The notes under the pieces: generated by a model
Told to the model about the DNA's origin: nothing
The model's input: the letters and a program-made list of their open reading frames with translations, nothing else
Database searches by the model: none
Shown here: positions 38,680 to 45,087 of the stretch, piece after piece
Layout of the letters: the number at the start of each line of letters is the position of its first letter
Numbering within the stretch: the first letter of the stretch is position 1
From: Bacteroidota bacterium
GTDB taxonomy: Bacteria > Bacteroidota > Ignavibacteria > UBA10030 > UBA8401
Direction: 5' to 3'
Length of the DNA: 64,000 bases
NCBI GenBank assembly: GCA_021796215.1
Contig: JAJYOK010000002.1
Span: 62,001 to 126,000, forward strand
Position numbers and translations under genes: made by a program

Positions 38680-38744
38680 AGAGACATAGGCTTCATCTCT
38701 TTTCAAAACCCGCGAAAAACACAAAGGTCCATTGGCATTAAACT

Positions 38745-38760
38745 TGTATTTATAAATACA
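38745..38760 (+). promoter_or_regulatory. Perfect 16-bp palindrome, candidate operator of merR operon
   Basis: TGTATTTATAAATACA is a perfect inverted repeat ending three bases before the merR ATG. Its position fits binding of a dimeric regulator, perhaps the MerR protein itself, and it would also overlap the ribosome-binding region. Confidence 0.55.
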
Positions 38761-38763
38761 GCT

Positions 38764-39198
38764 ATGAAGACGTTTGATAGAGAGAAACCGATATACACCA
38801 TTGCAACCGCTGCGGGCATGGTCGGCGTTTCAGTTGAAACCCTGCGACTGTATGAGCGGCGCGGACTCATTCTCATTTATAAAAGCCGAGGGAATCAGCG
38901 TCTCTATTCACAATCGGATGTTGAGAGATTTGAATGCATCAGAAAAGCGATCAACGAGCACAAGATTTCGATTGAAGGCATTCGCCGGATGCAGGCAATG
39001 ATTCCGTGCTGGGAATATGTACAATGTTCAACAGAACAGCGCAATGTGTGCCCCGCGTATAACAGGCCCGACGCAGGTTGTTGGACATATAAACATAAAA
39101 AGAATGCCTGCAAAGACCGCGAATGCAAAACCTGTTCTGTTTACCAGCTTTCGGCAGATTGCGATAATATCAAAGCTGCGATCCATCAAAGGAAATGA
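38764..39198 (+). CDS. MerR-family regulator with Cys-rich C-terminal domain
   Basis: Residues 8-75 form a MerR winged-helix domain (YTIATAAGMVGVSVETLRLY, RRGLI, NQRLYSQSDVERF). The C-terminal part is short and contains eight cysteines (82, 88, 96, 106, 116, 121, 124, 133) with two CW pairs (PCWEYVQC and GCWTYK), the pattern of so-called two-CW proteins, likely to bind metal, heme or an Fe-S cluster. The usual long dimer coiled coil is reduced. ATG at 38764 fits the domain start. It lies three bases upstream of the octaheme cytochrome gene, so it is probably the local regulator and a redox or sulfur sensor. Confidence 0.88.
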   Translation: MKTFDREKPIYTIATAAGMVGVSVETLRLYERRGLILIYKSRGNQRLYSQSDVERFECIRKAINEHKISIEGIRRMQAMIPCWEYVQCSTEQRNVCPAYNRPDAGCWTYKHKKNACKDRECKTCSVYQLSADCDNIKAAIHQRK

Positions 39199-39201
39199 AC
39201 C

Positions 39202-40818
39202 ATGAAAAAAATATTCTTTGCTCTCCTCCTCCTCGGGGCTTCCATCGGACTGGTGCTGACCGCTCTTCATAAAAACAGCACCGAGAGTACACCACTGTCC
39301 GAGTTAAGGAAACAATATTCTCAAAAAACAAAACCATCCGTTGATCATTCTCTCTTCCCTCAACTCAAAAAAAAATTTACCAAACCCCAACAAGTTACTG
39401 CCGCGTGTATTTCCTGCCATAACGGACGAACAGAAGAAGTGATGCACTCGACACACTGGAACTGGGAACGTCTCGAATATATCAAGGGGAAAGGCATCAG
39501 GGCAATCGGTAAAAGAAATATTCTGAATAATTTCTGCATCGGCATAGCGGGCAGTGAAAAAAGCTGCACACGATGTCATGTCGGATACGGATATGCGAAT
39601 ACGGCTGCATACTTCACAGACTCGCTCAATGTAGATTGCCTTGCCTGCCACGATAACAGCGGCACGTACATGAAGGCAAACGAGAAAGCAGGAATGCCCG
39701 ACACTTCAGTGAATTTAAATTTCGTGGCGCAGCATGTCGGCAAGCCGACCCGAACGGATTGCGGCGCCTGCCATTTTTTCGGCGGAGGCGGCAACAATGT
39801 GAAACATGGCGACCTCGAAATGGCGCTGTTCGACCCATCGCGAAATGTTGACGTCCATATGGCGTCCGACGGCGCAGATATGCAATGCGTGGACTGCCAC
39901 ACTGCACAAAAACATCAGATGTTGGGAAAAATGTATTCCGTGTCTTCTATGAACCGCAACCGCGTTCAATGTGAAACCTGCCACGGCTCGATGCCTCACA
40001 CCGACAACGTGCTGAACGATCACACGCTTAAAGTTGCCTGCCAAACATGCCATATACCGGTGTACGCAAAAGTGAATCCAACGAAGCTTTTCTGGGACTG
40101 GTCTCAAGCCGGAAGATTGAAAGACGGCAAGCCGTTTGAAGAAAAAGATTCGAACGGTACCGACGTTTATATGTCCATCAAAGGAGCATTTGTGTGGGGA
40201 AAGAACGTAAAACCAGATTACCTCTGGTTCAACGGCACAGCGTCGCATTACCTTGTCGGTGATGCAATTGATCCGTCAAAGATGGTAAAGATCAATACAC
40301 TGTACGGCAGTTATGATGATCCCGATGCAAAGATTTATCCGGTGAAAATTCACCGCGGGAAACAAATCTACGATGCACAATATCACTATCTCATACAACC
40401 GAAATTATTCTCCGACAAACCCGGCGATGGCGGCTACTGGGGTGACTTCAACTGGAACCGTGCCGCAGAAGAAGGTATGAAAAAAATCAATCTCCCCTAC
40501 AGCGGCAAGTACGGTTTTGTCGAAACGGAAATGTATTGGCCCGTTAACCATATGATTTCTCCGAAAGAACAAACAGTGTCATGCACAGAATGCCACACGC
40601 GTGAAAACGGGCGACTTGCCAATCTCAACGGATTTTATTTGCCGGGAAGGGATTACAATGCAAGCGTGGAATTGTTCGGCAAAGGAATTCTTCTGCTCAC
40701 ACTTGTCGGCATCATTCTTCACGGCGGAGCAAGAATTGTTGTTCGTCGGAAGCGTTCCAAGATGATCTCTAACTCTAAAGCGGAGACCATCTCTGCTAAA
40801 TCAAAAGGAGCAAAGTAA
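39202..40818 (+). CDS. Octaheme c-type cytochrome, tetrathionate reductase family
   Basis: The 538-residue protein has an N-terminal hydrophobic segment (5-22) and eight CxxCH heme motifs at Cys69, 122, 146, 187, 229, 257, 280 and 461 (CISCH, CTRCH, CLACH, CGACH, CVDCH, CETCH, CQTCH, CTECH). The number, spacing and the long gap before heme 8 match the Shewanella OTR family, which reduces tetrathionate, and nitrite and hydroxylamine in vitro. A C-terminal helix (494-513) anchors it, facing the periplasm. The last 20 residues are encoded by a palindromic repeat (40760-40792). The next gene, a cytochrome b, would supply electrons from quinol. Confidence 0.92.
   Translation: MKKIFFALLLLGASIGLVLTALHKNSTESTPLSELRKQYSQKTKPSVDHSLFPQLKKKFTKPQQVTAACISCHNGRTEEVMHSTHWNWERLEYIKGKGIRAIGKRNILNNFCIGIAGSEKSCTRCHVGYGYANTAAYFTDSLNVDCLACHDNSGTYMKANEKAGMPDTSVNLNFVAQHVGKPTRTDCGACHFFGGGGNNVKHGDLEMALFDPSRNVDVHMASDGADMQCVDCHTAQKHQMLGKMYSVSSMNRNRVQCETCHGSMPHTDNVLNDHTLKVACQTCHIPVYAKVNPTKLFWDWSQAGRLKDGKPFEEKDSNGTDVYMSIKGAFVWGKNVKPDYLWFNGTASHYLVGDAIDPSKMVKINTLYGSYDDPDAKIYPVKIHRGKQIYDAQYHYLIQPKLFSDKPGDGGYWGDFNWNRAAEEGMKKINLPYSGKYGFVETEMYWPVNHMISPKEQTVSCTECHTRENGRLANLNGFYLPGRDYNASVELFGKGILLLTLVGIILHGGARIVVRRKRSKMISNSKAETISAKSKGAK
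40760..40792. repeat. AGATGRTCTC palindromic repeat within the octaheme gene 3' end
   Basis: AGATGATCTC (40760-40769) and GAGACCATCT (40783-40792) form an inverted repeat with one mismatch around 13 bases. Related palindromes (AGATGGAGCCCATCT at 35018, AGATGGTCCC...GAGACTATC at 60905) occur between genes. Confidence 0.55.
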
Positions 40819-40819
40819 C

Positions 40820-41479
40820 ATGAAAAAGGAATATGTCTATCGTGCATTTGAGCGATTCTGGCACTGGACGCAAGCGGCACTTATCATTTTTCTCGGCGTC
40901 TCAGGCTTTGAAATTCACGGATCACTTCATTTCTTCGGCTACGAAAATGCTGTGCACTACCACAATATCGCTGCAATCAGTTTTCTCATCCTCATTGCGT
41001 TCGCAATCTTCTGGCATTTGACGACAGGCGAATGGCGGCAATACATTCCGACATGGAAAAATCTCCGTGCTCAGGCGGAATATTATATTTTCGGAATTTT
41101 CCGCAACGCTCCACATCCGACAAAAAAAACCGTGTTGAGCAAACTGAATCCGTTGCAAAAAATTGTGTACGCCGGATTGAAAGTGCTCGTCATTCCTGTA
41201 ATGGTAATTACTGGACTTCTTTACATGTTCTATCGCTATCCTCAGAAATATGAAGTTCTCAGCTTGAATATCAAAAATTTGGAAGCAATCGCGATTCTCC
41301 ATACTGTCGGTGCATTCCTCCTTGTTGCGTTCTTCATTATGCACCTGTATTTGATCACGACGGGACAAACAGTAACATCGAACCTGAAGGCGATGATCAC
41401 AGGCTACGAAGAACTTGAAGGCGAACCGCATGAAAAGAAAAAATATCCTGAAGTTAATGAACCTGTTCTATCCAAGTGA
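40820..41479 (+). CDS. Membrane cytochrome b (cytochrome b561/NiFe-hydrogenase b type)
   Basis: The 219-residue protein has four hydrophobic helices and histidines positioned as in di-heme b cytochromes: FERFWHWTQAALI, ENAVHYHNIAAISF, AIFWHLTTGEW, ILHTVGAFLLVAFFIMHLYLI. Such proteins pass electrons from menaquinol to a periplasmic partner, here most likely the octaheme cytochrome one base upstream. AAAGGAG precedes the ATG. The C-terminal 25 residues are charged and cytoplasmic. Confidence 0.9.
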   Translation: MKKEYVYRAFERFWHWTQAALIIFLGVSGFEIHGSLHFFGYENAVHYHNIAAISFLILIAFAIFWHLTTGEWRQYIPTWKNLRAQAEYYIFGIFRNAPHPTKKTVLSKLNPLQKIVYAGLKVLVIPVMVITGLLYMFYRYPQKYEVLSLNIKNLEAIAILHTVGAFLLVAFFIMHLYLITTGQTVTSNLKAMITGYEELEGEPHEKKKYPEVNEPVLSK

Positions 41480-41488
41480 GATAAGACA

Positions 41489-42001
41489 ATGAACACAAAA
41501 TATATGAATCCGTACCTTGCCGGATTTTTTCTCGGCTTGGTTTTACTTGCAACAATTTTTATTACCGGACGCGGCTTGGGTGCGAGCGGCGCAATTAAAG
41601 ATGTTACCATTGCTGTAATGGACGTTTTTGCACCGGCACATACGGAACGGGCACCGTTCTTCAACAATTATGTCGGGCCGGGAAAAGAAAATCCGCTGAA
41701 ATCATGGCTCGTGTTTGAAATTGCGGGCGTTTTCATCGGAGCGTTCGTTTCCGGCTTGGCGTCCAATCGGTTAAAATTTGTTACTGAAGCGGGGCCGAAA
41801 GTCCGCCCGAAACTTCGCTGGCTCTTTGCAGCAATCGGCGGAGCGCTCTTCGGGCTCGGCGCACAATTCGCGCGGGGATGCACAAGCGGTGCGGCTCTCA
41901 GCGGAATGGCGGTGCTTTCAACGGCGGGCTTCATTGCAATGCTCGCAATCTTCGGCACCGGGTACGCAGTGGCGTACGTTGCCAGAAAATTATGGCTTTA
42001 A
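41489..42001 (+). CDS. YeeE/YedE family sulfur transporter, N-terminal-type half
   Basis: This 170-residue membrane protein has the YeeE/YedE (TsuA-type) signature GLGAQFARGCTSGAALSGMAVLS and several helices. Characterised TsuA imports thiosulfate through conserved cysteines that line the channel. This protein is half the length of the fused transporters, and a second half follows 98 bp downstream, so the two probably assemble. A long loop between helices (APAHTERAPFFNNYVGPGKE) is unusual. It lies in the octaheme cytochrome operon. Confidence 0.87.
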   Translation: MNTKYMNPYLAGFFLGLVLLATIFITGRGLGASGAIKDVTIAVMDVFAPAHTERAPFFNNYVGPGKENPLKSWLVFEIAGVFIGAFVSGLASNRLKFVTEAGPKVRPKLRWLFAAIGGALFGLGAQFARGCTSGAALSGMAVLSTAGFIAMLAIFGTGYAVAYVARKLWL

Positions 42002-42047
42002 ACTGAAGTTATATAAAATGATTTTTTCAGATGACAAAACAGAGTAT

Positions 42048-42076
42048 CGTCATTCCCGCGAAGTCGGGCATGACAG
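42048..42076. repeat. REP-like palindromic repeat (copy 4, reverse orientation)
   Basis: CGTCATTCCCGCGAAGTCGG followed by GCATGACAG lies in the 98-bp gap between the two half-transporter genes, in the opposite orientation to the copy at 3345. Confidence 0.7.
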
Positions 42077-42099
42077 CTTCCTAACAAAAAGGTGAAACA

Positions 42100-43296
42100 A
42101 TGGGTCCATTCGTTCCTGATCTTATCTCCGACCAATTGAATTTGGTCGTTGCCTTGCTGCTCGGCATTGCTTTTGGCTTCGTGCTTGAGCAAGCAGGCTT
42201 TTCCTCATCGCGGAAACTTGCCGGAGTTTTCTACGGCTACGACTTCACCGTGCTGCGCGTATTTTTTACGGCAGCGATTACGGCGATGAGCGGCGTTCTC
42301 TTACTCGATTATTTCGGGCTGCTCGACACCGACATTATTTTTGTAAATCCAACGTGGCTTGTTCCGACAATTGTCGGCGGCGCCATAATGGGCGTCGGTT
42401 TTATTCTCGGCGGCTATTGCCCGGGCACAAGCGTGTGCGCGGCGGCAATCGGAAAAATTGATGCGATGTTCTTTGTCGGCGGAGGATTGTTAGGCGTGTT
42501 TGTGTTCGGCGAATTGTATCCGCTGTACGATAATTTTTACGCATCTACATCCCTCGGTGCTGTCAAGGTTTTTGATTCACTCGGAATGACGCAGGGAGTC
42601 TTTGCATTTATTTTGATTGCTATTGCCGTCGGTGCGTTCGCCATTACAACACTTATCGAAAAACGAGCGAATAAGACTTCCGCCCCATCATTCGAGTTCA
42701 AACCGAAAAAACATTTTGCCGCAGGAACTGCTGTTGTTGCGCTTGGCGTTCTGTTCATTTTCATGCCGAACAGAAAAACACATCTTATCAACGAAGTGAG
42801 CGGCACACACTACATCTCCTCGCATTCGGTAAGCACAATGGACGTTGACGAACTTGCCTTCCGCATTGTTGACCATGAACCGAATGTGCACATTGTTGAC
42901 ATTCGTTCAGCCGCTGAGTATGCAAAACTCGCTCTCCCCGGTTCGGACAATATGACTCTGCGCGATTTTTTCAGTAAAGAGTGGGCACCTCTTTTTTCAC
43001 AACGGCACGTGAAGAAAATTCTTCTTGCCGATAACGAAACGGAAGAGCGCACCGGGTATTTGCTTTTGCAAAAATTGGGCTACGAAAATCTCGCCGTGCT
43101 GAACGGCGGATTTGAAGCGTTCAACAAAACTATTCTCTCTCCATCAACATTTGTTCCGGTGGGAACGCGCTGGGATAATGATGTCAAGGAATTCCGGGAA
43201 CAAGCGCGCACAAAAATTCTGAAGATGATTGCCGACAGCAGAAATGCAGGGCCAAAGGTAGAGAAAAAACCGAAGAAGATTCAGGGAGGATGCTGA
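42100..43296 (+). CDS. YeeE/YedE half-transporter fused to rhodanese-like domain lacking catalytic Cys
   Basis: Residues 1-225 are membrane helices with the YeeE/YedE pattern GFVLEQAGFSSSRKLAG and GVGFILGGYCPGTSVCAAAIG (Cys107, Cys113). Residues about 245-345 form a rhodanese fold (HIVDIRSAAEYAKLALPGS ... NLAVLNGGFEAF), but the active-site loop reads ILLADNETEERTGY: Asp311 stands where the persulfide-carrying Cys belongs. The tail is Lys-rich and ends in Gly-Gly-Cys. The fusion suggests that imported sulfur is handed to a cytoplasmic domain; with the normal Cys missing, the domain may only bind, or the C-terminal Cys may carry the sulfur. This last point is inference. Confidence 0.87.
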   Translation: MGPFVPDLISDQLNLVVALLLGIAFGFVLEQAGFSSSRKLAGVFYGYDFTVLRVFFTAAITAMSGVLLLDYFGLLDTDIIFVNPTWLVPTIVGGAIMGVGFILGGYCPGTSVCAAAIGKIDAMFFVGGGLLGVFVFGELYPLYDNFYASTSLGAVKVFDSLGMTQGVFAFILIAIAVGAFAITTLIEKRANKTSAPSFEFKPKKHFAAGTAVVALGVLFIFMPNRKTHLINEVSGTHYISSHSVSTMDVDELAFRIVDHEPNVHIVDIRSAAEYAKLALPGSDNMTLRDFFSKEWAPLFSQRHVKKILLADNETEERTGYLLLQKLGYENLAVLNGGFEAFNKTILSPSTFVPVGTRWDNDVKEFREQARTKILKMIADSRNAGPKVEKKPKKIQGGC

Positions 43297-43320
43297 GATT
43301 CCGCAACGATGTATCGTTGT

Positions 43321-43359
43321 AAAAAAAGCCAATCCCGATTACCGGAATTGGCTTTTTTT
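43321..43359. terminator. Bidirectional terminator after the sulfur operon
   Basis: Seven A residues, a stem GCCAATCCCG/CCGGAATTGGC with a short loop, and seven T residues lie 25 bp after the operon's last stop codon. Confidence 0.9.
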
Positions 43360-43560
43360 ATCCTAACTCTGAGCCAACCCATACACCATCAACTTGACAA
43401 TCTCACGAAAAGACTTAGATTAGCCACATACATAGTTTTGCGCTCTCCAGAACAGCACAAAAAGACAAACTATTTTGAAAACCACCATTTATTTTCGATT
43501 ACAGAGAATTTCCATAATGTCTTGCATTGGGACCGGGCGATACGATTCTGAGAGGTTCGA

Positions 43561-45087
43561 ATGAACATTCTCCTCCTCTATCCGCATATGCCAGATACTT
43601 TCTGGTCTATGCAGCATTTCATGAAGATGGTTTCAAAGAAATCAAGCTACCCTCCGCTGGGACTTCTGACAGTCGCACGAATTCTGCCTGATAACTGGAA
43701 CAAGAAGCTGGTTGATCTCAATGTCACTCCGCTTGACCCTGCCGATGTGGAATGGGCGGATTACGTGTTTGTCTCTGCGATGAATGTTCAACGCAAATAT
43801 GCGCACGAAGCAATTTTGGAATGCAAGAAACACGGAAAGAAAGTTGTTGCAGGCGGACCGTTGTTCACACATGAACATGAATACTTTCCGGAGGTTGACC
43901 ATTTTGTTTTGAACGAAGCGGAAATCACACTTCCCCTTTTTGTCGCCGACCTCACGAATGGAACTCCGAAACGAATCTATTCAAGCACAGAATTTGCCGA
44001 CATGAGCGAGGCAGTTCTGCCTGACTGGAGCCTGCTCGATCTCAAAAAATATGCGTACGCCATCGTGCAATATTCGCGCGGATGTCCTTACATGTGCGAT
44101 TTCTGCGATGTGACCACACTCTTCGGGCGGAGACCACGAACGAAAACAGCACAGCAGATAATCAGAGAATTGGATGAAATACTCGCCACCGGTGATCCGA
44201 TGATGATTCTCTTTGCTGACGATAATCTAATCGGCAACAGAAGGGATTTAAAGAACAATCTTCTGCCGGAATTAATAAAGTGGAGGCACGCACGTAAAAC
44301 GGCGCCGGGATTTGCAACGCAGGTCACCATCAATCTGGCGGATGACGAAGAGATGATGAAATTAATGATTGACGCCGGATTTAGAAACATCTTCGTCGGC
44401 ATCGAATCAACGGATATTGAAAGCTTAGAGGCATGCAGAAAAACGCAAAACCTCAAGCGAAGCATTTCCGGCGATGTTCAGCTTTTGCAGAAAAAAGGAT
44501 TCATTGTTACCGGCGGATTTATTGTCGGATTTGATGCAGATAAAGAGACGATCTTCGACCAGCAGATTGATTTCATTCAGGAGAGCGGCATTGTGATGGC
44601 AACGGTGAATGTGCTCAAAGCGCCGCCGGGAACGGAATTGTACGACAGAATGAAAAAAGAGAACCGGCTGGTCGGCGATTTTGATTTCGACGAAAATAAA
44701 ACGAACATCGTCACGAAAATGGATACGCTCATTTTGTACAACGGGTATAAAAAAATACTTGATACAATCTACGATCCGCAAAAAGTCTATGAACGTTCAC
44801 GAAGCTTCCTTCTCAGATACGGCAATTATTCTTCTGAAAATCCCTTACAAAGAAAATTCCTCTTCGAAGATATTCTTGCACTTCTTGGAATCATCTATTT
44901 TGCCGGTATTGCAGGAAAGGGACGATTTTATTTCTGGAAACTGATGATCGAGATCGCTGTGAGAAGGAAAAGGAATTTGACCAACGCGCTCTTCTTTGGC
45001 GCACTGATGTACCAGTTTCAGAACCTTCACAAAAAGTTTATTGAAAGCTACAATCAGGTTGTCTCTGCATATCCCAAAGCCGCGTAG
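43561..45087 (+). CDS. B12-binding-domain radical SAM protein with DUF4070-type C-terminus
   Basis: Residues 1-150 form a cobalamin-binding-like domain (YPPLGLLTVARILP, KVVAGGPLFTHEHEYFPEVDHFVLNEAE). The radical SAM cluster motif is GCPYMCDFC (Cys175, 179, 182), followed by GRRPRTKTAQQIIRELDEI, which resembles the HpnP-like group of B12 radical SAM methylases. A C-terminal region (about 370-500) fits DUF4070. Substrate unknown; members methylate lipids or natural products. TAGTTTTG (43433-43440) could be its -7 promoter element. It stands alone. Confidence 0.87.
   Translation: MNILLLYPHMPDTFWSMQHFMKMVSKKSSYPPLGLLTVARILPDNWNKKLVDLNVTPLDPADVEWADYVFVSAMNVQRKYAHEAILECKKHGKKVVAGGPLFTHEHEYFPEVDHFVLNEAEITLPLFVADLTNGTPKRIYSSTEFADMSEAVLPDWSLLDLKKYAYAIVQYSRGCPYMCDFCDVTTLFGRRPRTKTAQQIIRELDEILATGDPMMILFADDNLIGNRRDLKNNLLPELIKWRHARKTAPGFATQVTINLADDEEMMKLMIDAGFRNIFVGIESTDIESLEACRKTQNLKRSISGDVQLLQKKGFIVTGGFIVGFDADKETIFDQQIDFIQESGIVMATVNVLKAPPGTELYDRMKKENRLVGDFDFDENKTNIVTKMDTLILYNGYKKILDTIYDPQKVYERSRSFLLRYGNYSSENPLQRKFLFEDILALLGIIYFAGIAGKGRFYFWKLMIEIAVRRKRNLTNALFFGALMYQFQNLHKKFIESYNQVVSAYPKAA

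Follow-up and report, generated by a model that had tools for sequence, protein, structure and literature searches.

In vitro, the compounds that the octaheme tetrathionate reductase (OTR) of Shewanella reduces include tetrathionate (PMC4484225), and the enzyme also acts on nitrite and hydroxylamine (PMC4484225). In Caldithrix abyssi, which has an OTR, a predicted tetrathionate respiration was unsupported by growth tests (PMC5317091). In Ignavibacteriae bacterium Ch128a, Otr and a cytochrome b561 have already been named as one cluster, and linkage to quinone was proposed (PMC7509429). The transporter TsuA/YeeE imports thiosulfate along a cysteine relay that is extended by a cysteine of its partner (PMC11073785), and PmpA/PmpB consists of split halves, predicted to form a heterodimer, with one cysteine each that is equivalent to Cys91 or Cys293 of TsuA (PMC11582611). 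SoxY binds its sulfur substrate at the cysteine of a C-terminal GGCGG sequence (PMC6067878), and in lucinid symbionts otr is reported to adjoin soxY and soxZ (PMC11237559). Here, we analyzed a 64,000-nucleotide stretch of DNA (the window) from a member of the Ignavibacteria (Bacteroidota bacterium, assembly GCA_021796215.1, contig JAJYOK010000002.1, positions 62,001 to 126,000 of the forward strand), in which a gene for an OTR is followed by genes for a cytochrome b and two halves of a YeeE-type transporter, the second of which carries a rhodanese-like domain and a C-terminal Gly-Gly-Cys (GGC) arm.

In the literature search, which left most subscription journals outside, no paper was found that treats OTR, YeeE and rhodanese as one system. 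The four genes make up a conserved, largely undescribed module built of known parts.

A conserved block of four genes

A preliminary description of this DNA had listed five genes in one direction, and all five open reading frames (ORFs) were indeed found on the plus strand at 38764-43296 in the order given there: MerR, OTR, cytochrome b, YeeE half and YeeE half/rhodanese (Table 1). The proteins were assigned to families with Pfam and NCBIfam profiles. The genes are separated by four gaps of 3, 1, 9 and 98 bp; the description had counted one 3-bp gap too many. The strong terminator that it had placed behind the last gene was recovered, and no shuffle of this sequence folds as well (z score, -5.9).

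The preliminary description had also named the gene order as something to be searched for in genomes. With the fifth protein as the query, one genome per species and the best 80 loci examined, OTR, cytochrome b, YeeE half and YeeE half/rhodanese followed each other in this order on one strand at 79 loci, and the remaining locus was interrupted by a contig end; the notion that these genes might be linked only rarely thus fails. The 80 records are named Ignavibacteriota, Bacteroidota, Acidobacteriota, Armatimonadota, KSB1, LCP-89 and others, and most of them are metagenome-assembled genomes (MAGs), in which single odd names may reflect binning errors. Gene order was maintained at 40 to 50% protein identity while all other neighbors changed, and among the flanking genes the upstream regulator alone recurs at a fixed place.

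The linkage was also examined starting from OTR. OTR was over the cutoff in 24 of 60 relatives, and when these 24 loci were extended, 21 had the YeeE pair 3' of OTR. Two of the others (L054 and L055) are cut by contig ends, L054 being a piece of the same genome as L053, and the third (L052) is a lone OTR of the soluble type. When 296 genomes were drawn evenly from the phylum, the YeeE pair was linked at 26 of the 44 places with an OTR over the cutoff. The 18 loci without YeeE are of two other kinds, one with OTR and a cytochrome b and one with a shorter OTR of ~460 amino acids without a membrane helix, and a general rule of YeeE linkage throughout the OTR family was therefore rejected. The first kind is seen in family f26 (L163 to L167), where the OTR has a C-terminal helix; this arrangement was found in 10 of the 41 genomes of the draw with an OTR over the cutoff. 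The soluble OTR lies near genes for an Mrp/ParA-like ATPase and CGGC proteins in L168, L169 and L176, and peroxiredoxin and NifX-type genes were seen in the scanned neighborhoods of such loci.

In a quick maximum-likelihood tree of 98 OTRs, 80 of the 81 YeeE-linked enzymes formed a single clade (SH-aLRT, 99), and the MAG copies from Acidobacteriota, Armatimonadota, KSB1 and LCP-89 were interleaved in the tree. The exception, L182, sits on a long branch. Its locus (L182:5313-10451) is divergent, with an OTR without a membrane helix and a YeeE pair whose tail ends in GGLCS, followed by a 631-amino-acid multiheme protein with a C-terminal part that matches cytochrome b561. A chance neighborhood was rejected on the basis of the order kept at 79 of 80 loci, the single OTR clade and the variability of the other neighbors. 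We regard the existence of a conserved four-gene module as nearly certain.

A probable split YeeE transporter

The fourth protein matches the C-terminal half of the Sulf_transp profile PF04143 (profile positions 175 to 308) with 70 bits and the membrane part of the fifth protein matches the N-terminal half with 57 bits (cutoff, 27 bits in both cases). The cysteines expected to serve in transport are conserved as well, Cys131 of the fourth protein in 81/81 and Cys107 of the fifth protein in 80/80 sequences. Both the profile matches and the conserved cysteine in each half bear out the earlier assignment of the two proteins to sulfur-type transporters and suggest that together they represent a split transporter of this type.

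TusA is the usual cytoplasmic partner of YeeE. TusA (PF01206) was found neither in the operon nor in the genome, and the same search was positive in 11 of 14 control genomes; imported sulfur would therefore not pass through TusA. Furthermore, no phosphoadenylylsulfate/adenylylsulfate (PAPS/APS) reductase-type protein was found in the genome, which indicates that the cell probably takes up external reduced sulfur. Both absences are compatible with a role of the module in sulfur supply, respiration or detoxification. Presence of the operon did not correlate with sulfate assimilation genes in the 60 relatives, in which those genes were too sparse.

A pseudo-rhodanese with a Gly-Gly-Cys tail

The rhodanese-like domain of the fifth protein had been noted before, and the predicted fold agrees with it: PF00581 matched with 43 bits, and the predicted structure of the domain, with a predicted local distance difference test (pLDDT) score of ~90, matched rhodaneses with a Z score of ~13 and a root mean square deviation of ~2 Å. 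What is missing is the catalytic cysteine, which was absent from the rhodanese loop in all 80 homologs (the loop of the window protein reads ADNETEER). An active rhodanese was therefore rejected. The preliminary description had mentioned neither this loss nor the GGC at the end of the protein. When the PDB was searched with the sequence of the fifth protein, no relative emerged; the fold searches matched the rhodanese part alone and barely covered the transmembrane part.

In the structural model, the domain is followed by a helix and then by a C-terminal tail that is predicted to be flexible (pLDDT, <50). In the 78 uncut loci, this tail ends in GGC (71 loci), GGCG (3 loci), GGCS (2 loci), GGCGS (1 locus) or VGC (1 locus), and the terminal cysteine, Cys398, was present in 79/79 sequences. 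Further loci ended in GGC or GGCS in 15 of 15 cases, some of which may come from genomes that duplicate named records. The average information content of tail residues 392 to 398 was 3.44 bits, compared to 1.49 bits for the linker and 2.25 bits for the rhodanese core. In L175 (7799-9003), the YeeE/rhodanese gene is split into two overlapping frames, by a sequencing error or a real split.

Since positive charge is concentrated in loops 1-2, 3-4 and 5-6 of the six-helix membrane part (K+R of 4.1 in loop 5-6 versus 0.0 at the N terminus and 0.04 in loop 2-3), the N terminus and the rhodanese domain are predicted to be periplasmic. A cytoplasmic rhodanese that receives the imported sulfur, which would be the simplest way to connect YeeE with a rhodanese, is disfavored by the same charge rule. 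Since the GGCGG cysteine of SoxY binds the substrate and otr is found beside soxY and soxZ in the lucinid symbionts, we read the tail as a probable sulfur carrier arm by analogy.

OTR and cytochrome b

The octaheme cytochrome had been named as an OTR, and the profile agrees: TIGR04315 matched with 594 bits (cutoff, 375 bits), all eight CXXCH motifs are present and conserved and the Shewanella structure 1SP3 was matched with an E value of 2e-130. K201 aligns with residue 153 of 1SP3, which we take to be the lysine ligand of the active-site heme 2 (Mowat 2004). K201 was invariant in 21 sequences, as were H507 and R511 of the C-terminal helix. An additional invariant cysteine outside the CXXCH motifs, C112, is also present in 1SP3. 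A C-terminal hydrophobic helix was found in 72 of 76 YeeE-linked OTRs, and His15, His66, His161 and His175 of cytochrome b (and His33, His48 and His99) were kept in at least 79 loci. Given this helix and the kept candidate heme ligands, OTR and cytochrome b plausibly form a membrane-bound complex that is linked to quinone. The genome of L056 (G000:C18) encodes a second multiheme protein, part of which shows 29% identity to OTR, behind a cytochrome b that is 37% identical to that of the operon, and there is a further cytochrome b/multiheme pair in this genome.

A possible coupling of electron transfer and sulfur transport

How might these proteins work together? We propose that the products of the last four genes work as a single module in the membrane. 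On its periplasmic side, electrons would pass between the quinone pool and cytochrome b with the anchored OTR, and the two YeeE halves would assemble into a split sulfur transporter of the YeeE type. In this module, the pseudo-rhodanese would be noncatalytic and would hold a flexible arm with a terminal cysteine that works like the arm of SoxY. This cysteine may bind periplasmic sulfane sulfur or thiosulfate covalently, bring it to the heme 2/lysine site of OTR, where it would be reduced (or, less probably, oxidized), and pass the sulfur on to the cysteine relay of the YeeE pore. Our working proposal is that a periplasmic cysteine arm couples a redox complex of OTR and cytochrome b to a split YeeE transporter, and we put it forward tentatively, with slightly less than even confidence.

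Several points weigh against this proposal. OTR family members without YeeE exist, not only at the 18 loci mentioned above but also in Paracoccus, and a carrier is therefore not a necessary part of OTR chemistry. Which way the electrons flow is not readable from sequence. The transmembrane part of the model is only moderately confident and the topology is based on charge counts. Finally, a conserved terminal cysteine could also bind a metal, form a disulfide or have a regulatory function.

The best-surviving alternative is the one that had been put forward in the preliminary description: OTR would reduce tetrathionate to thiosulfate in a respiration, and the YeeE pair would import this thiosulfate as a sulfur source. 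The rhodanese would then be a relic. This scheme is compatible with the evidence. It agrees with the in vitro activity of the Shewanella enzyme (PMC4484225), with thiosulfate import by TsuA/YeeE (PMC11073785) and with the failure to find a PAPS/APS reductase-type protein in the genome. However, a relic would not be expected to keep an intact fold and an invariant GGC tail across phyla, and the scheme assigns no role to this arm, which is the most conserved unusual feature of the module. Moreover, a TusA/YeeD partner was found neither in the operon nor in the genome, and the tetrathionate respiration predicted for Caldithrix was unsupported by the growth tests (PMC5317091). Taken together, we consider the scheme unlikely.

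Cytochromes b of the PF01292 family serve both electron directions in known enzymes. If electrons flowed toward quinone, OTR would oxidize a persulfide or thiosulfate bound to the arm and deliver the electrons via cytochrome b, in a manner similar to SoxCD, while YeeE would take in or supply the sulfane sulfur. The SoxY-like arm fits such an oxidation, and octaheme proteins related to OTR include oxidases such as HAO (PMC8840924), but OTR itself is known only as a reductase. A search of the 60 relatives for SoxY came up empty, but since its control gave no signal, this result says little. An oxidative direction appears quite improbable to us.

Another possibility is that the module detoxifies polythionates, reactive sulfur or nitrite and hydroxylamine upon induction by a thiol sensor, with no gain in energy or sulfur. 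Cysteine-rich or two-cysteine regulators are encoded first in many loci, OTR reduces nitrite and hydroxylamine (PMC4484225) and the soluble OTR adjoins a peroxiredoxin gene in another kind of locus. However, the soluble OTRs belong to a different clade, and coupling to quinone together with a dedicated transporter would be an elaborate design for this purpose, which leaves detoxification with a small chance at best. That unrelated functions were merely coinherited as neighbors, as could happen among many loci in related phyla, is hardly credible, given an order that withstands such sequence divergence and exchange of the surrounding genes and is interleaved across phyla.

If the arm of the proposed OTR/cytochrome b/YeeE module does carry sulfur, the module would represent a new way of coupling electron transfer to the passage of sulfur. 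It is even conceivable, with a lower confidence than for the coupling as such, that the module is a redox-driven sulfur group translocation complex, in which the quinone-linked octaheme cytochrome performs its chemistry on sulfur carried covalently by the transporter's own cysteine arm. If this is true, the redox step and the membrane passage of sulfur would be steps of one machine in several phyla. With the same reserve, we may be looking at a sulfur group translocation machine that has so far been filed solely as "octaheme tetrathionate reductase." OTR genes in environmental genomes are often labeled "tetrathionate respiration"; since a large clade of these enzymes is tied to a sulfur transporter and a SoxY-like arm in one fixed gene block, this label may be incorrect, or not the whole story, in many genomes of Ignavibacteriota, Bacteroidota and Acidobacteriota. 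The module makes the natural substrate of OTR directly testable through one cysteine.

Regulators, upstream elements and surroundings of the operon

The preliminary description had the operon controlled by a MerR sensor encoded first. A regulator gene is indeed often first, but the MerR is exchangeable: among the 80 loci, the regulator place is taken by MerR in 29, by a MarR with two cysteines in ~15 and by ArsR in 2, and MerR as an obligatory part was rejected. The DNA-binding domain of the window MerR matched PF13411 with 60 bits (cutoff, 21.6 bits). Its tail had been described as a cysteine-rich two-CW domain; nine cysteines are in fact conserved in 28 or 29 of 29 loci and NF045718 (two-CW) is the sole family match, but with 15.3 bits (E value, 0.02) this match remains below the cutoff of 35 bits. 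The two ArsR proteins (L109 and L116) have one cysteine before the helix-turn-helix and one near the C terminus and are reminiscent of sulfane sulfur sensors; ArsR repressors with two conserved cysteines sense sulfane sulfur in other bacteria (PMC12423496).

Upstream of merR lies a candidate -24/-12-like element, TGGCATTAAACTTGTA in the window. Compared to TGGCACGNNNNTTGCW, at least 8 of 12 positions agreed in 24 of 27 MerR-type loci, with an almost constant spacing to the start, and at least 9 of 12 agreed in 19 of 27 loci versus 1.2 in shuffles. The window has GG-N10-GT and other loci have GC, as in the sigma-54 pattern GG-N10-GC, and rpoN is present in the genome. With this spacing, the transcript would be almost leaderless. 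The 16-bp palindrome TGTATTTATAAATACA recurs unchanged in eight further loci, seven of which have it at -19, and is a single copy in the window even when 2 mismatches are allowed.

The 98-bp gap between the YeeE halves, which is shorter in many relatives, owes much of its length to a dispersed palindromic repeat. Its core, GTCATTCCCGCGAA, has 21 copies in the genome; a control sequence had 0. At 43561-45087, 3' of the operon, the window contains a gene for a B12-binding radical SAM protein with DUF4070, and in L094 a gene that begins with a similar sequence is located upstream of the operon.

Table 1. Features of the operon and its borders (positions in the window)
Feature	Position	Strand	Evidence or remark
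MerR-type regulator, Cys-rich C-terminal domain resembling two-CW	38764..39198	+	PF13411 (MerR_1), 60 bits
OTR family octaheme cytochrome c, C-terminal membrane anchor	39202..40818	+	TIGR04315, 594 bits; 1SP3, E 2e-130
b561-type cytochrome b, likely quinone-reactive partner of OTR	40820..41479	+	PF01292 (Ni_hydr_CYTB), 95 bits
YeeE/YedE half transporter, C-half, PmpA-like	41489..42001	+	PF04143 (Sulf_transp), 70 bits
YeeE/YedE N-half (PmpB-like), predicted periplasmic pseudo-rhodanese and GGC arm	42100..43296	+	PF04143, 57 bits; PF00581, 43 bits
Transcription terminator	43320..43365	+	-20 kcal/mol, z -5.9, run of T
Candidate sigma-54-like -24/-12 element TGGCATTAAACTTGTA	38733..38748	+	Fixed distance from merR start
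Perfect palindrome TGTATTTATAAATACA, possible operator	38745..38760		Just 5' of merR
Dispersed palindromic repeat in 98-bp gap, incidental to module	42049..42074		Core GTCATTCCCGCGAA

Comparison with known systems

The window OTR and the enzyme of Shewanella oneidensis (1SP3) are homologous over the whole domain, with eight CXXCH hemes and Lys153 corresponding to K201. However, the window enzyme is anchored C-terminally and has its own cytochrome b and YeeE pair, whereas the Shewanella enzyme is periplasmic and interacts with STC (PMC4484225). The genome of Ignavibacteriae bacterium Ch128a (PMC7509429) is our locus L100 and carries the four-gene core; the paper on this organism does not mention YeeE or rhodanese, hence neither the transporter nor the GGC arm.

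SoxY of SoxYZ resembles the fifth protein, whose tail is predicted to be flexible, in its C-terminal arm with Gly-Gly-Cys; a few homologs end in GGCG or GGCGS. The SoxY domain PF13501 gave no match with the fifth protein, which matches Sulf_transp and Rhodanese alone. Unlike in SoxY, the arm extends from a rhodanese fold that is itself attached to a transporter, and the likeness is one of chain ends, not of homology. As for the regulators, the SqrR/BigR/SoxR type has its likeness in the two-cysteine ArsR of 2 of the 80 loci, whereas the window has a MerR with a cysteine-rich tail instead. With PmpA/PmpB and TsuA/YeeE, the module shares the construction from two half proteins with one conserved cysteine each. 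Unlike TsuA/TsuB, the window operon has no TusA/YeeD partner and is linked to a multiheme enzyme, and unlike in PmpA/PmpB, its PmpB-like half is fused to extra transmembrane helices, the pseudo-rhodanese and the GGC arm.

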